A stretch of DNA of 64,000 bases from Enterocytospora artemiae (lineage: Eukaryota > Microsporidia), in NCBI GenBank assembly GCA_038659295.1, contig JASNGC010000003.1, positions 248,001 to 312,000 of the forward strand, given 5' to 3'. A program made the translations under genes and the position numbers. Shown piece after piece: positions 9,801 through 30,672 of the stretch (position 1 is its first letter; every line of letters begins with the position of its first letter). The notes below the pieces were generated by a model. The model saw only the letters and a list, made by a program, of their open reading frames with translations, made no database searches and was not told the DNA's origin.

Positions 9801-10007
9801 GGTTGTGTTGTCTCAGGTAACAAAACTGTTATTAAAATTTGTTGTCTACACAACCTCCGCATCATTCCACAGGACTATGCAAGCAATCATCTCCGTGGAC
9901 GAATCAGGCAATCCAACATTGTTTATTCTCTTGCGAGAAATTGTCGGCTTCTACACCGACAAATACAGATACTACACTTGATCAAAGCTTTCGCTCAGAG
10001 AAGTGAG
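9801..10007 (-). ncRNA. U2: U2 spliceosomal snRNA
   Basis: The minus strand carries the invariant branch-point recognition sequence GTGTAGTATCTGT (complement of 9965-9977), preceded by GATCAAGT exactly as in canonical U2. The 5' end, near CACTTCTCTGAGCG, matches the CGCTTCTCGGCC start of other U2 RNAs, and a GAAA-capped stem I follows. Downstream are a perfect 7-bp hairpin (TTGTCGG/CCGACAA), a GCAA-capped hairpin (TTCTC/GAGAA) and a terminal stem closed by GGTTGTGT/ACACAACC. U2 pairs with the intron branch site. The 5' end is uncertain by a few bases and the 3' end is set by the terminal stem. I could not place the Sm site with confidence. Confidence 0.9.
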
Positions 10008-15476: not shown

Positions 15477-18400
15477 TTATTCTTTCACTCTGTATTCTAT
15501 TTCTCCTTGTTTTTGATACTCCTCCACATCACTTCTTCTTTCTAAAAACAGTTTGACTTTCTCTTCTTTCTTTAGTAGATTTCTGATAATGTCTATAGAT
15601 AGTCCATTGTCTACAAAGAATATCTCTAAAGTCCCATCCTTCAGCAATGTACACTTGCTTCTAATTGTTTTAACCATGGCCAAAGTATCCTGGAAGTCAT
15701 TTTTTAAAGTATCGGTACACTCAGCATCTAAGGTAGATTTGTCAGTATCCGTTCGACTTTCCAGAATAACCATAGGATAGTTGCGTATAATCTCGCCTTC
15801 AAGCTTGTGATGAATTTCTTCAGTGATAAAAGGCATGAAGGGATTCAGCATCCTTATAATGGAGATGAAAGAATAGTATAATACAGCATTGTCCAAAGAA
15901 ATCGCCGTGTTAGAATCCACAAATGTATTCCTGTCCAATTCATTACTATTATGCAGCTTTATTACTTCTATAAAATTATCACAAAAATCATTCAGAAATA
16001 GTTTGTAGATAGACTGGGTTGCAGACATGAAGTCGTAAGTTTCTATAAACCTATGCTGCTCTTGTATGGTTTGATTTACTCTCTGGATAATCCATTTGTG
16101 ACATTCTGCCAAGTTGGCAATGTTATCAGAAATAAAATTGGACACACTTGTATAACACTCATTACTGCCATAAATGCATTTGTAAGTCCCACCGATAGGC
16201 TGGCATAATACCCTGTTGCATACAAACTTGTAAGCATTATATATCTTATTACACAATCTGCTATTTCCCGATACTCTCAAGATATCCAGATTGATGTCTC
16301 TGGCTCCGTTAGTATAGTTCAGAAGGGTAAATCTAAGTGCATCTGCCCCACACTTAGGAATTCCATTGGGATAGTCAGCATTAATAGACTCCTTGGCCCT
16401 AACCATTTCATTCCTGCTCACATTTATGGAAATGTTGTTCACCAACTGCTCATTACTAACTCCGTCTATTACAAATATCGGATCTATGACATTTCCTAAA
16501 GACTTGCTCATTTTACGACCATGAGCATCTCTGACTATTCCATGAAGCAGAATTGTATCAAATGGTCTAGAATCCAACAGCTCATATGAAAGCATAACCA
16601 TTCTAGCAACCCAGAAGAAAAGTATGTCCGATCCTGTTTCCAGCATAGAGTTTGGGAAATATTTGTTCGACCAATTGGAATAATCACATAGACCCCCATT
16701 GTTAGTACACTCTCCATCTTCCTTCGTTTGATCCCATCCCCATCCTAATGTCGAAAATGGCCACAATCCGCTAGAGAACCATGTGTCCAATACATCCTCA
16801 TCTTGATATATTTCTGTCACACCGTGTTTACTGGCGATGCCCAAGGCCTTTTCATAGGTTTCTGCAACTATCCACTTCTTATCACCATGTGGGCCATCGT
16901 AATAGTAATATGCTGGTATTCTATGCCCCCACCATAGTTGTCTACTTAGACACCAATCTCTTATATTCTCTAGCCATCTATAGTAAACTGCTTTCGACTC
17001 TTCTGGGAACAACTTTATATCCCCACTCCTAACTCCTTCTATAGCCTTCTTGGCCATTCCCTTACAATCACACCACCATTGTTCTTTTATTGTAGGTTCT
17101 ATAATATCATTAGATCTGGAGCAAAATGGCAGGATTTGATCATATGGGGAAATTTTAACAATGGAAGGATGGGAAGATAACAGCAAACGACAATCAAATC
17201 TCTTCAAGCCTACGAAATGTGACAAGTATTTAGATCTGCCACGTTCATCACCTACATTTAATATCCTGCCATCTATTCTATTCTCTAAATCGAAAACCTG
17301 AATCGTGTCTAGCTTGTATTTTTTACCCAATTTATAATCTACCCCATCATGTGCTGGCGTAATCTTAAGAATTCCAGTTCCAAAAGACAAACCTGCCTGG
17401 GAATCGCGAATCACCGGAATGATTTTGAATGTAACTGGATTGATGGCACACAATCTGGTGACGTCTGAAATATCAACACGATCCTCACCAATATTTCCAC
17501 CATCCTTATTGACCTTATACTTATTCTTTTTTTCCATTTTTAACAATCCATTCATGTCCATCTGCAAATTTTCAGTATCCCGAACGCTAGTGGATGGAAT
17601 TTCCATATCCGGAACCATCTTTTCTCGAAATATTCGTTCAATATCATTGAATCGATTATCCTCTGGATTTATACAAATGGCTGAATCTCCAAAAATAGTT
17701 TCTGGGCGAGTTGTCCCAATAATTACGAAAGGCAATTGAGTATAGACTTTTTCGCTAATATTCCTGAGAATAGAGTCATAAACACCACTAGTGTTCCTAT
17801 CATCCAACCTAATCCCACGGACTATTTCATCAATTTCTGTTTGGTATTTCTGCATATCATTTTCTCTAATAAAATAGTACTTCACATAATACATCTGTCC
17901 AAATGTGTATTCAGAGTTATCTACCTTTATTCTGCTGTTTGCCTTGACCTCTTTGAAATCAACTTCCAGATCAGACAATGTTGTCTTAAGGGCTGCTGAG
18001 TAGTTCACAAGCTTATTTTCCCTATAGATAAGATTACGGTTGTAAAGTGTTACAAATGCCAAATTGACAGACTTGGTTACCTTCGGATCAAGCGTAAACA
18101 TCTTCTTAGAATAATCCAAAGAAGTCCCCATCCTATCAAACTGATTTATAATATTGATGGAATATCTATTTGACCACTCAAACGCAGATTTCAAGAATGA
18201 TTCTCTATCTATTACCTTGGAATTAGAAACCAAAGTATTGTTCTCTTCAACAGTTGCACCCTTATTCTCGCTACCGTTTGCATTACTATTACTACTGTTA
18301 TCACCATACACATTTCTTTTATTCATCATATTCTTCATCACTACGGACTGTGTAGCTATTCCCGCATGATCCAATCCAGGTAGATATAGAACATCCTTTC

Positions 18401-18758
18401 CCACAAGTCTGTTATATCTGATAAGTGAATCCTCTATGGCAATCATCATGGCATGTCCAATATGTAGAGAACCAGTAATGTTTGGAGGGGGAATAACCAT
18501 GCTGAAAATCGCTTTTTTATCTGTACAGTTACTCTTGTCGTACACTCCAGATAAAAAAGTATTGTTTTCTTTCCAGTATGCAATCCATTTTTTCTCCACT
18601 TCCGATGGATCGTATCCCCCTAAGCTCTTAGGAACCTTAGGTATGGACTTTTTAGAAGCAATGTTTAGTTGCTTCTTGGCTAACTTGGCCAGTTTTTCTG
18701 CTTTTTTCTCTGCTTTTAGGCGCAACTTCTCTTCTTTTGATGCTATAGAGTTGCTCAT
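15477..18758 (-). CDS. VAS1: Valyl-tRNA synthetase (class I)
   Basis: The enzyme charges tRNA-Val. The 1093 residues hold a Lys/Ala-rich N-terminal extension (1-40), the HIGH motif in PPPNITGSLHIGHA (His99-His102), a large editing domain with TTRPETIFGD, the KMSKS motif at 749-753 in GRKMSKSLGNVIDP, and a C-terminal anticodon-binding domain. All key motifs are intact and length fits eukaryotic ValRS. No mitochondrial targeting peptide is evident, consistent with a cytosolic enzyme. The start follows ACCCTTAGT. Confidence 0.97.
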   Translation of the reverse strand: MSNSIASKEEKLRLKAEKKAEKLAKLAKKQLNIASKKSIPKVPKSLGGYDPSEVEKKWIAYWKENNTFLSGVYDKSNCTDKKAIFSMVIPPPNITGSLHIGHAMMIAIEDSLIRYNRLVGKDVLYLPGLDHAGIATQSVVMKNMMNKRNVYGDNSSNSNANGSENKGATVEENNTLVSNSKVIDRESFLKSAFEWSNRYSINIINQFDRMGTSLDYSKKMFTLDPKVTKSVNLAFVTLYNRNLIYRENKLVNYSAALKTTLSDLEVDFKEVKANSRIKVDNSEYTFGQMYYVKYYFIRENDMQKYQTEIDEIVRGIRLDDRNTSGVYDSILRNISEKVYTQLPFVIIGTTRPETIFGDSAICINPEDNRFNDIERIFREKMVPDMEIPSTSVRDTENLQMDMNGLLKMEKKNKYKVNKDGGNIGEDRVDISDVTRLCAINPVTFKIIPVIRDSQAGLSFGTGILKITPAHDGVDYKLGKKYKLDTIQVFDLENRIDGRILNVGDERGRSKYLSHFVGLKRFDCRLLLSSHPSIVKISPYDQILPFCSRSNDIIEPTIKEQWWCDCKGMAKKAIEGVRSGDIKLFPEESKAVYYRWLENIRDWCLSRQLWWGHRIPAYYYYDGPHGDKKWIVAETYEKALGIASKHGVTEIYQDEDVLDTWFSSGLWPFSTLGWGWDQTKEDGECTNNGGLCDYSNWSNKYFPNSMLETGSDILFFWVARMVMLSYELLDSRPFDTILLHGIVRDAHGRKMSKSLGNVIDPIFVIDGVSNEQLVNNISINVSRNEMVRAKESINADYPNGIPKCGADALRFTLLNYTNGARDINLDILRVSGNSRLCNKIYNAYKFVCNRVLCQPIGGTYKCIYGSNECYTSVSNFISDNIANLAECHKWIIQRVNQTIQEQHRFIETYDFMSATQSIYKLFLNDFCDNFIEVIKLHNSNELDRNTFVDSNTAISLDNAVLYYSFISIIRMLNPFMPFITEEIHHKLEGEIIRNYPMVILESRTDTDKSTLDAECTDTLKNDFQDTLAMVKTIRSKCTLLKDGTLEIFFVDNGLSIDIIRNLLKKEEKVKLFLERRSDVEEYQKQGEIEYRVKE

Positions 18759-19015
18759 ACTAAGGGTTCAGGAAATTTTTGCAAAAATATTAACCAGAAC
18801 TTTCAAATCTCTGCTACAACAGAGAGATATGCTACTGGAAAGAGAGTACCTTATCACAACTTTGGATGCTGTAGTCAAATCCAATCTTCCATCTCGACCT
18901 TAAATGGGTTTCCACCAAATTCTTTGTGTATAAGATACCTTTTCTATCATCTAATGCAATAACAAAGGAGATTTTGAAACTCCTTAAAATAAATCTTTTA
19001 TAACTGATCTTACCC

Positions 19016-21403
19016 ATGTCTTATCAAGCAAGTGGTAACGATAATCAAATCAAAGAAAATGGGGGTGATACTAATGATTTGGAACATCATTTGTCAAAAA
19101 TTGATTTAAGCTTTCAAATTCCACCCCTGATAACAATTCCTGCAGATGTCTGGTGGAATCCACGTATAGTAAAAAGCATAGATCTCTCCAGAAATAATAT
19201 TGTGAACTTGCCATCTAAAATCAAATCGTTTGCTTACTTAGAACATTTAAATTTAGGGTTTAATAAAATCAAATCAATTCCCCTCGAACTTTCGGAACTA
19301 TCTAATTTGAGAGTACTTGAACTACAATCTAACCAGTTGACTGCTATTACACCATCGCTTTCAAAGCTACAGAACCTCCAAACATTGAATGTTGCCAATA
19401 ACAAAATTAGAGCTATGGAAAACAACACCGTTCCGTTTTCTAGACTAGAACACCTCAATTTTAGCCACAATCAGCTCTCTGCTTTGTCCAACGACATTTT
19501 TAACTCTAGATTGACACATTTGTGTATTTCCATAGATAGTAGGAATACTTTTCCTAAAAATATCCGAAATATTAGTACGTTGGAGTCTTTGTCAATTGTT
19601 GATTGTAAGATTTCGGACATACCCGAAGATATCGGCCAATTGAGAAATCTAAAGGCATTAGATCTATCAGGAAGCTCTCTCAACGGCATTCCAGATTCAA
19701 TCTGCAATCTTAGCAGCCTTGAGTCGCTGAATCTAAGCAAAAATCAACTTTTGAGTATTCCAGAGGATATTTGTAAATTACACAAACTGATTAGTTTGAA
19801 CCTGAGAAAAAATCGTTTGGTTGGCTTGCCAAGTGGACTTGGAGATCTGAAAAACTTACACGAATTACTCCTAGACACAAATCAACTGACCTCTATACCA
19901 AACACGCTCTTTCGAGTAAGTGGTTTACTGTATTTGCAGCTCGATTTTAATAACTTAAAATATATACCCCGCAAAATTGGACAGATTAATAATTTGAAAA
20001 GTTTATCTGCATGTAGCAACCAGTTAACATATGTTCATAGGGAAATTGGGAAGCTAACAGATCTGAATAGTTTAAGGTTGGATAGGAATTTGCTGACAAG
20101 TATTCCTGAAGAGATAGGGCAATTGGAGCAACTAACCTGTCTTTCAGTTAGACACAATCAATTGAGTAAAATTCCAAGCACAATAGGTAAGCTAAACCAG
20201 TTAATCAACCTGTCCTTCAGTAACAACAAGTTGACCAATATACCGGATGAAATTGGCCAGTTGGGTAATCTACGCGAACTGTACCTGAAGGGCAATCAAC
20301 TGACTTCACTACCTAGAAAAATTGCAGACTTGAGAGGTAGTTTAGTTCTGCTGAATTTAATTGACAATCCAATATCTGAGTATGGAGAAGGTGAGCTATT
20401 GGGATGGAGACAACTTAGAGAAATATTTGGAGATAGGGTTGTTTTGGATGTAGACTGCTGTACTGATGGCATTAAGCGGATATCCGAAGAAGAAGTTTAT
20501 GAGAGGTTATCAACACTACCCATCCACTGGAATTTGGATAGCCTAAAAACCATCAAATTGAGTCCTGTCCCAAAGTCAAAGCTAAGATTCCAGGAGATCC
20601 AGGATCTTTTATATGACGCTTGTAACAAAGTTGAGTTGTACGAACTATTTCCAGACCACAACCATGAGCTACTACACACATATCTTCAAACGATTTACAA
20701 AGTGGATATAGATGCCTTCAAATGGTGGAGAATGTACGATCACTCTGTCGATATTGCAAAGGATCTATTGGAAGCAATACTTGTAAAGATGGTTGAAAAG
20801 TTGAAGGAAAACCCATCAAAGGAGATTGTTGAGGAACTCCAGTCTTATTTGTCTGTAATTGACATGGGTTTACATTCTTGTCCAGACGGCCAATTGGCAG
20901 CTTTTAATTCTGTATATGGATTGCTATATCATAATAAAGAAACAGATCAGTTCCAAGAGTTTATCTACAACAATGTGGCATCACTAAAGAACTATATTTT
21001 TGAACTAACAGTGACACCTTTCTATGCTGGACAGAATGTTCATGTTCTGAGCCATTGGAAATACAAATTAAGGGACAAGCTAGGGTTGAATGTGGATTTT
21101 GAGCCACGAATGGGTACCTTTGGCCAGGATCCATTCTATGACAGTGATGGGAATGCTCTCCAGGCATTTTTCAATAAATTCACTCCTGGATATGTGATTG
21201 ATAAAATCCAAGAGTTGATTAATGAGAATAAGATGATGTTTGGAGAGGCCGGAAGCTTTTTGATGAGTAGATTTAGTGATGAAGAGGTGATTAAATGCTT
21301 TAATAGTTCTTCCAAGGATGCGTTTGACCCTGTTACAATTAAAAAAAACGGGGTGGAGCAAGTTTTGATCGAAATGAATATTCTAAAGAGGAAGGACCCT
21401 TAG
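19016..21403 (+). CDS. Leucine-rich-repeat protein with C-terminal NEL-like domain
   Basis: The 795-residue protein has about 18 leucine-rich repeats of 23 residues between about residues 35 and 465 (pattern LxxLxxLxLxxNxLxxIPxxI), then a helical C-terminal domain (about 480-795). That domain contains a Cys-Pro-Asp at 622-624 (HSCPDGQLAAFN) and, about 50 residues later, NVHVLSHWKYKLRDKLGL from Asn674. Bacterial IpaH/SspH ligases combine LRRs with a NEL domain whose catalytic cysteine sits in a CxD motif followed by an E-V-x-L...L-x-L element. The resemblance is suggestive only: the usual Arg after CxD is Gly here. No signal peptide is seen. The CCC directly precedes the ATG. Confidence 0.8.
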   Translation: MSYQASGNDNQIKENGGDTNDLEHHLSKIDLSFQIPPLITIPADVWWNPRIVKSIDLSRNNIVNLPSKIKSFAYLEHLNLGFNKIKSIPLELSELSNLRVLELQSNQLTAITPSLSKLQNLQTLNVANNKIRAMENNTVPFSRLEHLNFSHNQLSALSNDIFNSRLTHLCISIDSRNTFPKNIRNISTLESLSIVDCKISDIPEDIGQLRNLKALDLSGSSLNGIPDSICNLSSLESLNLSKNQLLSIPEDICKLHKLISLNLRKNRLVGLPSGLGDLKNLHELLLDTNQLTSIPNTLFRVSGLLYLQLDFNNLKYIPRKIGQINNLKSLSACSNQLTYVHREIGKLTDLNSLRLDRNLLTSIPEEIGQLEQLTCLSVRHNQLSKIPSTIGKLNQLINLSFSNNKLTNIPDEIGQLGNLRELYLKGNQLTSLPRKIADLRGSLVLLNLIDNPISEYGEGELLGWRQLREIFGDRVVLDVDCCTDGIKRISEEEVYERLSTLPIHWNLDSLKTIKLSPVPKSKLRFQEIQDLLYDACNKVELYELFPDHNHELLHTYLQTIYKVDIDAFKWWRMYDHSVDIAKDLLEAILVKMVEKLKENPSKEIVEELQSYLSVIDMGLHSCPDGQLAAFNSVYGLLYHNKETDQFQEFIYNNVASLKNYIFELTVTPFYAGQNVHVLSHWKYKLRDKLGLNVDFEPRMGTFGQDPFYDSDGNALQAFFNKFTPGYVIDKIQELINENKMMFGEAGSFLMSRFSDEEVIKCFNSSSKDAFDPVTIKKNGVEQVLIEMNILKRKDP

Positions 21404-27849: not shown

Positions 27850-30672
27850 ATGTCTTCTAATTTACGAAGTGCAGCATCGTTGATTTTTCAGCTAGATTCA
27901 GCAAGCAGCGATCTTACAGAGTCTCAGCTGGAGTATATTGTGAACAATTCAAACCCCCACATCATTTCATATTTGCTATCCTTTGATTTTTCAGATTTAC
28001 CTATTAATTCTATTGTAACAAGTACGGTTGTCTTAATAGAAGCTGATGTCTCGATGGCCAATCTGCAGTATTTTCAGTATTCAGAAGTATACAATAGCAA
28101 ATATTGTGAGACATTATGCAGGAAAAGTAGGGGGATATTTTATAATGTATTGTACAGAGCCGTTTATAGGCAGGATTTTTCCAAGATAGACCTACTTGCT
28201 AGAAATGTAATTTCAAATGCCAAACTTGATAATAAAGCCACTCAGGTGAACAGTAGCAGCAATGTCTTCGATATTCCAGATTTTCCAATTGACGATGAAT
28301 TGCTACAAAATATTTTTGGATTACATCGTTGTCGCATTGGAGTGAAAAGCGATATGGACCACTTTATTGCTGCTATGCTAGATCAAGACATAGATATAAC
28401 TAAGGTGGTGGCTGAAAACATCAAACTAACCTCCAGTATCAGTGAGGATTCTTCCGATAAGTCAAAGCCAAAAGTTGTACATAGCCCCAAGCACTTTAAC
28501 TACATGTTCTTTTTAGAAATTGAATTTGATAGACCACATAACCAGAAACTATTTCCTTTGCTCAGGTCTTTACTTTCTTCTGTAAAATCAAATCACTTTC
28601 AAAAACTAGTAGAGAATATTATCCATCAGGATTTGTGTAAGATATATTTTAAAAAACAGGAAAATGCAGGAATAGCATTTGTGGAAAACTTGTTGCATAT
28701 TTGCAACAGATTCCTTATTGAGGTTTTGGAAAAGAAGGATATTGTTCAAAAAATTGGCAAAAACAAGTTTCCGACATTTTTGTATTTGAAAATGATTCGG
28801 GTGTATCAGGCCTACAAGAATCTGATAGGCAGGGAAGAAGGAACTAGCACACACGAGAACAGAATTGATATTAGACAGTATATCGATTTTGTAATAAAGG
28901 TTATGCACTATAATAGGAAAAGAATATTCAGTAAGATAACAGACAGAATTTGTGAGGATAGCAGTGCATCAAACCATGATGATTCAAATACGTTCTGTGA
29001 CGGGGAAAACTCGGCAGAGGACGGTTGTTGTTCACTTCTCCTAGATGATGATGGGTTGTCGACGTTATTTGATTATATACACAACAATAGGTTTATGACA
29101 CAGGAGTTTCTCGAAATTATTCCATACTTCTTTTATTATAAAAATACTCACAAAACAGATCTGTTAAGAATTATGAGGATTTATCGAATTCATGACAAGG
29201 TAATAAAACTAAGTGAAAATAAAAGAAGAAATTCAAAAGACACAGCCACGCCCGTAATGATAAATGTTAAAAATCCAAAATCTCCCATTAAGAACCCATT
29301 TCTTCTGGAGCTGCTTAAAATGTGTGGAGATAGGTCTGACGAAGCTATATTTGAAAATAGACTACTAATTATCTATTGCATCAGAGATATACCCCTATCG
29401 GTCTGCCCAGAATCTCTAAGAATGGTGAATTTTCTTGTTGCAGATTTTGAGAAGGCATTCTACATGGGAAACAAGCTGATAAGTGAAATAGAGGAGTTGA
29501 GAGATGCTTTTAAACAACATAAATCAAATATAAATAAATATGTTGGTGAAATCGCTTACAACTGTGCAGAAAACAGCCCAATCTACAACGATATTGATGA
29601 GTCCGAGTTTCCTTACAAGGTGGTTATTAGGGTATCCAAATTTAATGATCAGGAATTGCAGGCATTCTACAGAGTCAACAAGATGAGTGACCGAGTAATT
29701 ACGGAGTTCTCGAACTATGTATATCTCTATAGGCGTAGTGTGGCCATGGATGGTGGTAAAGTAACACACTCCAATAATGAGAGCAACATCAGATCTTCTT
29801 GTACATGTGAAAATCCCCTAGTATGTTTTACTGCTTTACTACGCTCACAGGACACAATACAATCCAGAGTCAAGTCTTTAAAAATGTACTCAGATGTCTT
29901 TTTGGAGTATTATGATGGAATTTGTGCAATTTTGAAGAACAGTCGAAAACTATTTCTTAATAGAAATGTGTTCAACAAGCTAAGTGGCATATTAAACAGT
30001 GTTCTAAAAGAAATGATAAGCAGAAAAGGATCTAGGAGAGGAAATATTGACACTGCTGAGCATCCCATAAACACTCCTTCTACCTATCCTCAATATGGCA
30101 CTTCCAATTCCTGTGGACACTCATTTAGATTTGATTTTAATATATCACTGATTCCGTCAGAAAGCGAAAGGAGTGTCATTTTTGTCAAAATGTCTCTTTT
30201 GTACAAAACTTTGGAATTAATTTGTAGATTCGAAAACCATGCTAAATATTTGTCGATAAAAACAAATTATTTGAAGGAATCCATGGATATAATCAGGAAA
30301 AAGAGATATTCTAACATGGCCAGCAATTCCAAAGTCAGTCCAAATGCAAGCTTTACCCCAATGAATGCTACTAATGTAAATGTTCTTTTTAAAACCATCG
30401 GCAATATATGCGCTATTATTGACAGCAATGCAGACACCCACTATGATGATGATGTTCCAGATGAGTTTTTGGATCCTCTCACATGTGTTCTGATGGCCAA
30501 GCCTGTAATACTGAAGACCTCAAATCAGACAATTGACCTGTCGACATTTAAGCAAATTATGCTAAATGATCAAACTGACCCATTTAATAGAATGATTTTG
30601 ACCGAGGATAGTTGGGAAAGAAATGAAGAATTAGAAAAAAGAATACAAGAGTATATTAGTAAGCTTAGTTAG
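27850..30672 (+). CDS. UFD2: Ubiquitin conjugation factor E4 (Ufd2/UBE4), U-box E3
   Basis: Ufd2 extends ubiquitin chains on substrates delivered by Cdc48. The 940-residue protein has a long helical Ufd2 core and a C-terminal U-box (about 868-935): PDEFLDPLTCVLMAKPVIL, then QTIDLSTFKQIMLNDQTDPF and NRM. These align directly with the U-box of fungal Ufd2. The start ATG follows CCCCTCTAA. Length is near yeast Ufd2 (961). The U-box is intact while the core is diverged. Confidence 0.92.
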   Translation: MSSNLRSAASLIFQLDSASSDLTESQLEYIVNNSNPHIISYLLSFDFSDLPINSIVTSTVVLIEADVSMANLQYFQYSEVYNSKYCETLCRKSRGIFYNVLYRAVYRQDFSKIDLLARNVISNAKLDNKATQVNSSSNVFDIPDFPIDDELLQNIFGLHRCRIGVKSDMDHFIAAMLDQDIDITKVVAENIKLTSSISEDSSDKSKPKVVHSPKHFNYMFFLEIEFDRPHNQKLFPLLRSLLSSVKSNHFQKLVENIIHQDLCKIYFKKQENAGIAFVENLLHICNRFLIEVLEKKDIVQKIGKNKFPTFLYLKMIRVYQAYKNLIGREEGTSTHENRIDIRQYIDFVIKVMHYNRKRIFSKITDRICEDSSASNHDDSNTFCDGENSAEDGCCSLLLDDDGLSTLFDYIHNNRFMTQEFLEIIPYFFYYKNTHKTDLLRIMRIYRIHDKVIKLSENKRRNSKDTATPVMINVKNPKSPIKNPFLLELLKMCGDRSDEAIFENRLLIIYCIRDIPLSVCPESLRMVNFLVADFEKAFYMGNKLISEIEELRDAFKQHKSNINKYVGEIAYNCAENSPIYNDIDESEFPYKVVIRVSKFNDQELQAFYRVNKMSDRVITEFSNYVYLYRRSVAMDGGKVTHSNNESNIRSSCTCENPLVCFTALLRSQDTIQSRVKSLKMYSDVFLEYYDGICAILKNSRKLFLNRNVFNKLSGILNSVLKEMISRKGSRRGNIDTAEHPINTPSTYPQYGTSNSCGHSFRFDFNISLIPSESERSVIFVKMSLLYKTLELICRFENHAKYLSIKTNYLKESMDIIRKKRYSNMASNSKVSPNASFTPMNATNVNVLFKTIGNICAIIDSNADTHYDDDVPDEFLDPLTCVLMAKPVILKTSNQTIDLSTFKQIMLNDQTDPFNRMILTEDSWERNEELEKRIQEYISKLS

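Follow-up and report, generated by a model that had tools for sequence, protein, structure and literature searches.

A leucine-rich repeat protein of the microsporidian Enterocytospora artemiae with a conserved helical C-terminal domain weakly resembling NEL ubiquitin ligases

In this work, we analysed a 64,000-nucleotide stretch of the Enterocytospora artemiae genome (GenBank assembly GCA_038659295.1, contig JASNGC010000003.1, positions 248,001 to 312,000 of the forward strand; hereafter the window) and focused on a 795-codon open frame encoding a leucine-rich repeat (LRR) protein with a C-terminal domain (CTD). The layout of LRRs followed by the CTD, with one Cys (in a CxD[R] site), one His, two Asp and one Glu, does not vary among the six proteins compared, and the CTD weakly resembles NEL ubiquitin ligases. 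We tentatively read the product as a cytosolic LRR protein whose helical CTD may be a transferase that depends on a cysteine and is organised like a NEL ubiquitin ligase. Positions 20480-21403 of the window, to which the original prediction referred, encode residues 489-795 and the stop codon of this gene (Table 1).

Table 1. Coordinates in the window of the LRR + CTD gene and its features
Feature	Position	Strand	Basis or remark
Gene, 795 residues, LRR + CTD	19016..21403	+	Open frame; single CTD match in the genome
CCC directly 5' of ATG	19013..19015	+	Found before several window genes
LRR array, about residues 52-455, 23-residue repeats	19169..20380	+	Pfam and pattern; ends set by eye
Helical CTD, residues 456-795	20381..21400	+	Alignment and AlphaFold2; not assigned to any Pfam or NCBIfam family
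Invariant Trp571-Arg-Met573	20726..20734	+	Unchanged in all six proteins and in four representatives
Cys622-Pro-Asp-Gly625, CxD[R] site	20879..20890	+	Modelled loop between two helices
Q673-N-V-H676-V-L-S-H-W681	21032..21058	+	Beginning of the helix proposed to correspond to the NEL DExEVxLxYQ helix

LRR array and conservation of the C-terminal domain

The N-terminal part of the protein matched the Pfam family LRR_8 (E-value 5.5e-41). A loose LRR pattern found 17 starts, separated by exactly 23 residues in 12 of 16 gaps, so that the original prediction of about 18 repeats of 23 residues is a fair description. NCBIfam rows obtained with the whole protein (XopAE, XopAC, XopL, SlrP, SspH2, internalins and others) had their best stretches in the LRRs, far below the cut-offs, and were rejected.

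Five relatives, all made of LRRs and a CTD, were compared with the window protein (P0004), i.e. P0001, P0002, P0003, P0005 and P0006, of which P0001 and P0005 are fragments with missing N-terminal starts; three were found using the window protein as query (E-values 1.2e-42 to 6.1e-41). P0002 begins about 70 residues ahead of the point matching the start of P0006, and its start may be mis-called (P0002 residues 1-70). Based on CTD identity, P0001, P0003 and P0005 form one group (78-83 % mutual identity), P0002 and P0006 another (55 %), and the window copy stands alone (33-35 % to the five others).

Because the five relatives share the CTD, with Cys622, Pro623 and Asp624 invariant in all six proteins, its pattern is not due to chance. 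The Cys-Pro-Asp predicted at residues 622-624 was thus recovered, along with the conservation of Cys622 among the relatives, a point that the prediction had singled out for checking. Over residues 492-795, a single Cys (622), a single His (676), a single Glu (594) and two Asp (624 and 705) are invariant in the six proteins, and 49 of the 304 positions are invariant among four representatives (P0004, P0002, P0006 and P0003). The densest 12-residue runs (seven invariant positions, against a mean of 2.0) start at residues 671-674 and correspond to the QNxHVLxxW motif, whose Gln673 lies 51 residues from Cys622, in agreement with the second motif predicted about 50 residues past the Cys. In the window copy, the Q673-N-V-H-V-L678 part of this motif is encoded at 21032-21049. 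The residue following Cys-Pro-Asp is Arg in five of the six proteins and Gly in the window copy only; the Gly that the original prediction saw as weakening its case is real in the window copy, but is not shared by the relatives. Five residues before the Cys, the window copy has a Met where four of the five relatives have a Glu.

The CTD alone matched no Pfam family, and the PDB sequence search done with it gave nothing notable (best E-value 0.37). An NCBIfam row for the CTD alone (E-value 0.12) and three Pfam rows on the relatives (DED, E-value 0.037; MINION, 0.11; CesT, 0.056) were taken as chance matches. Searches using the six-row alignment retrieved 48 stretches matching the pattern in viral contigs and 34 in genome contigs, none of which was confirmed, confirmation being against the window sequence only. 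For this reason, the QNxHVLxxW pattern was searched directly, yielding 6 loci in genome contigs and 70 in viral contigs, the stricter version of the pattern giving no locus in the latter. Six-frame stretches of at least 80 residues from these 76 loci (L033-L108) were compared with the CTD profile and none was accepted (best E-value 0.18). Neither a CTD relative nor the giant-virus protein A0A3G4ZQ12 discussed below was obtained from these genome and viral contig collections.

Comparison with NEL ubiquitin ligases

The order of LRRs then CTD in the six proteins (P0001 and P0005 being N-terminal fragments) is that of NEL E3 ligases, in which an LRR arm precedes a C-terminal helical domain, and the C-P-D of all six would be a NEL-type C-x-D motif, i.e. 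a putative catalytic site. As described in extracts of PMC9320238, the C-x-D motif is the defining NEL feature, its Cys accepts ubiquitin from the E2 and transfers it to a lysine on the substrate bound by the LRRs, and Asp339 and Asp397 of IpaH9.8 matter. In the best profile-profile alignment with seven NELs, a narrow yardstick drawn from rhizobia only, CPDR paired unprompted with CEDR, and the HVL..W...LRD.LG helix fell on the NEL EVYLAYQ..LRD.L helix, both sharing V-x-L..[YW]...LRD-x-L. The plain reversed alignment scored lower than the real one (12.6 vs 18.5). The matched helix begins with Q-N-x-H-V in the six proteins, where NELs have the acidic D-x-x-E-V, this register resting on a weak alignment. 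Asp397 of IpaH9.8 is presumably the Asp of the D-x-x-E-V helix.

As predicted originally, the CTD is mostly helical in two AlphaFold2 models. In the P0005 model, the CTD Cys lies between helices, preceded by four longer (147-232) and three shorter ones and followed by eight, a helix order around the Cys similar to that of IpaH9.8, described in part of PMC7728815 as helices 5-8, the Cys loop, then helices 9-17. Past the second motif, where model confidence is uneven, the P0005 helices comprise 11, 14, 12, 6 and 10 residues. For SspH1, extracts of PMC12506513 describe two long antiparallel helices at the C-terminus that bind E2-ubiquitin; such a region is not evident in the CTD. Among the 219 chains picked by Foldseek for the CTD were NELs: the alignments of IpaH3 (3cvr), IpaH (3ckd) and SspH1 (9h6w) extend along the entire domain, cover 179-193 residues and are longer than any other in the 45 listed rows. 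The NEL chain had an E-value of 10 against the window CTD model, which had no PDB match at an E-value of 0.001 or below among the Foldseek rows; this lack of matches is no evidence for a new fold. Fold searches with the second model list LRR matches and say nothing on the CTD.

Several results weigh against a NEL-like enzyme. The CTD-NEL profile-profile score was not significant (E-values 0.15 and 0.12), and was equalled or beaten by shuffles in 6 of 100 column and 8 of 150 block or reverse randomisations. The NEL family PF14496 (cut-off 24 bits, HMMER filters applying) was matched at an E-value of 10 or below neither in any of the six proteins nor anywhere in the genome; as a positive control, the NEL protein of plasmid pNGR234a scored 229.7 bits, and none of 14 control genomes matched. 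The spacing between the Cys and the second motif is 50-52 residues in the six proteins and 60-70 in all seven rhizobial NELs, which also have a D..EV that is missing within 90 residues past the Cys in all six. The Gly replacing Arg after CxD may further weaken the proposed activity of the window copy. The NEL-like reading of the original prediction was partly supported: its motif comparison holds as a pattern, for the CxD site (followed by Arg in five of the six proteins) and for the pairing of the motifs, but the NEL family profile gave no match and the alignment score was not significant. Its E-V-x-L element subsists as an HVL helix paired with the EVYL helix and lacking D..EV; the comparisons with rhizobial NELs and with IpaH/SspH structures gave the CPDR/CEDR pairing and the whole-domain alignments, each at poor E-values.

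Proposed mechanism and cellular location

If the CTD is such a transferase, Cys622 would take ubiquitin as a thioester from a parasite E2 (seven E2-type, i.e. UQ_con, frames were found in the genome), Asp624 and His676, replacing the NEL acidic residues, would assist its transfer to a lysine, and the substrate would be picked by the LRR arm. The first part of the NEL site would be preserved in Cys622 and Asp624, with Q673..H676 standing at the second acidic site in a Cys-His arrangement.

A crude hydropathy scan of the first 45 residues revealed no evident signal peptide, and the protein therefore most likely acts inside the parasite cell. The highest 10-residue means were 1.19 in P0004, 0.61 in P0006 and 1.14 in P0002 (whose start is doubtful), and P0003 peaked at 2.54 at residues 29-38.

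Alternative explanations

The CTD could quite conceivably be a different helical Cys-His domain, also present in giant viruses and unrelated to NEL, in which Cys622 and His676 take part in some other acyl or thiol chemistry, the CxDR likeness to NEL reflecting convergence or chance. When the window CTD model (window 20360-21400) was compared by Foldseek, the top match in either library was A0A3G4ZQ12 of Terrestrivirus, at an E-value of 2.5e-3 (vs 10 for the NEL chain) with a probability of 1.00 and TM scores of 0.40/0.40 over 391 columns; the likeness in predicted fold spans approximately the full CTD, and this uncharacterised protein, with 346 residues in total, is about as long as the CTD piece alone. 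The combination of invariant Cys and His residues, differing from the Cys-Asp arrangement of NELs, and the incomplete separation of NELs from shuffles in the sequence tests argue in the same direction. However, the viral match lies above an E-value of 0.001, with a root-mean-square deviation of 19.2 A and 15 % identity, NELs do occur among the Foldseek chains with the longest whole-domain alignments, and the giant-virus and NEL readings may be one. A weaker row for the CTD in the viral library was A0A481YUR3 of Marseillevirus LCMAC102 (E-value 1.6, probability 0.38).

That the enzyme family is active and the window copy decayed or re-purposed, having lost the Arg after CxD to become an LRR-based scaffold or binder, appears unlikely: CPDG instead of the CPDR of all five relatives and Met instead of Glu before the Cys would fit such a loss, but the 795-codon frame is open and the Cys, Asp, His and second motif are retained. 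Even less probable is a secreted effector ubiquitinating host proteins, as proposed originally, which is compatible with the chemistry of a NEL-like transferase. Bacterial LRR-NEL proteins do work in the host, and the LRR families of Spraguea lophii with signal peptides are described as candidate effectors in extracts of PMC3749934, but N-terminal hydropathy is low in P0004, P0006 and P0002, the scan being crude and the starts of P0001 and P0005 missing. Extracts of PMC3749934 and PMC3486916 report LRR families in S. lophii (a predicted signal peptide in 37 of 52 complete members), Vittaforma corneae and Trachipleistophora hominis. These are microsporidian LRR proteins like that of the window, which is set apart from them by description: they form large, lineage-specific expanded families, whereas the window protein is a single genome match, has no evident signal peptide and carries a conserved CTD.

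Genomic context

The genome is microsporidian. The RF02542 model (SSU_rRNA_microsporidia) was covered over 1311 of its 1311 positions (about 1179 bits), with at least five places in the genome (5 of 45 candidates scored). Since the RF02542 search also picks up bacterial and archaeal small-subunit (SSU) rRNA in 9 of 14 control prokaryote genomes, the assignment rests on the clan comparison, in which RF02542 was the top model at the one locus scanned. On each of the contigs C1, C2, C3 and C4, an SSU rRNA gene lies roughly 8-27 kb from the contig start (a fifth is at C1:783561), as if the rDNA were subtelomeric.

The genome search gave only one CTD match in the 3.0 Mb, five-contig genome, whose other LRR frames (398, 445, 489 and 227 residues) have no CTD of this kind, as judged by eye. 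Two of them are adjoining genes (398 and 445 residues; G000:C2, about 643.8-646 kb; L015 892-2088, minus strand, and L024 1048-2385, plus strand) that both carry a CxxC...CxxH-like stretch after the LRRs and represent another LRR family, whose tail may bind zinc. The 489-residue LRR protein (L016 331-1800, minus strand) has what by eye resembles a CCR4-type nuclease domain.

The LRR + CTD gene (GC 0.371, GC3 0.376) falls inside the range of the 21 other tabulated open reading frames (ORFs; GC 0.336-0.405). CCC immediately precedes ATG in 5 of the 22 window ORFs chosen for the table, which we take to be a microsporidian start-proximal signal. Among ten nearby ORFs scanned against Pfam, three matched at the cut-off (eIF1A, a mismatch-repair protein and a U-box protein), two below it (SWIB and ELP1-like) and five not at all; the long neighbouring ORF at 15477-18758 was judged by eye to encode valyl-tRNA synthetase. 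A 940-residue protein (27850-30672, plus strand) with a C-terminal U-box at residues 869-938 is possibly a Ufd2-like ubiquitin chain factor. A U2 spliceosomal RNA matched at 9834-10007 on the minus strand (52 bits, against a gathering score of 46), and parts of the splicing machinery thus seem to be retained in this small genome.

Implications

Among the matches listed in the open-access literature (most subscription journals and bioRxiv lying outside it), there was no report of NEL in a microsporidian; the single paper joining 'microsporidia' and 'NEL domain' concerns, in the extracts available, Bordetella atropi effectors (PMC12923130). NELs belong to bacteria, whereas the CTD gene belongs to a microsporidian genome. 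It is possible, if rather doubtful, that NEL-type thioester ligases are not bacterial alone, a Cys-His LRR-NEL-like enzyme being native to microsporidia and metagenome organisms and the catalytic domain occurring alone in giant viruses; eukaryotic and viral NEL-like forms would then be possible sources or sisters of bacterial effectors. Were the NEL likeness real, the protein would be a eukaryotic version of a tool thought purely bacterial and would endow a very small eukaryotic genome with an unusual ubiquitin ligase; the presence of such an enzyme in a minimal eukaryote would be relevant to the origin of bacterial effectors. Should the CTD prove not to be a NEL, it remains a conserved Cys-His domain that lacks annotation and may have a giant-virus relative.
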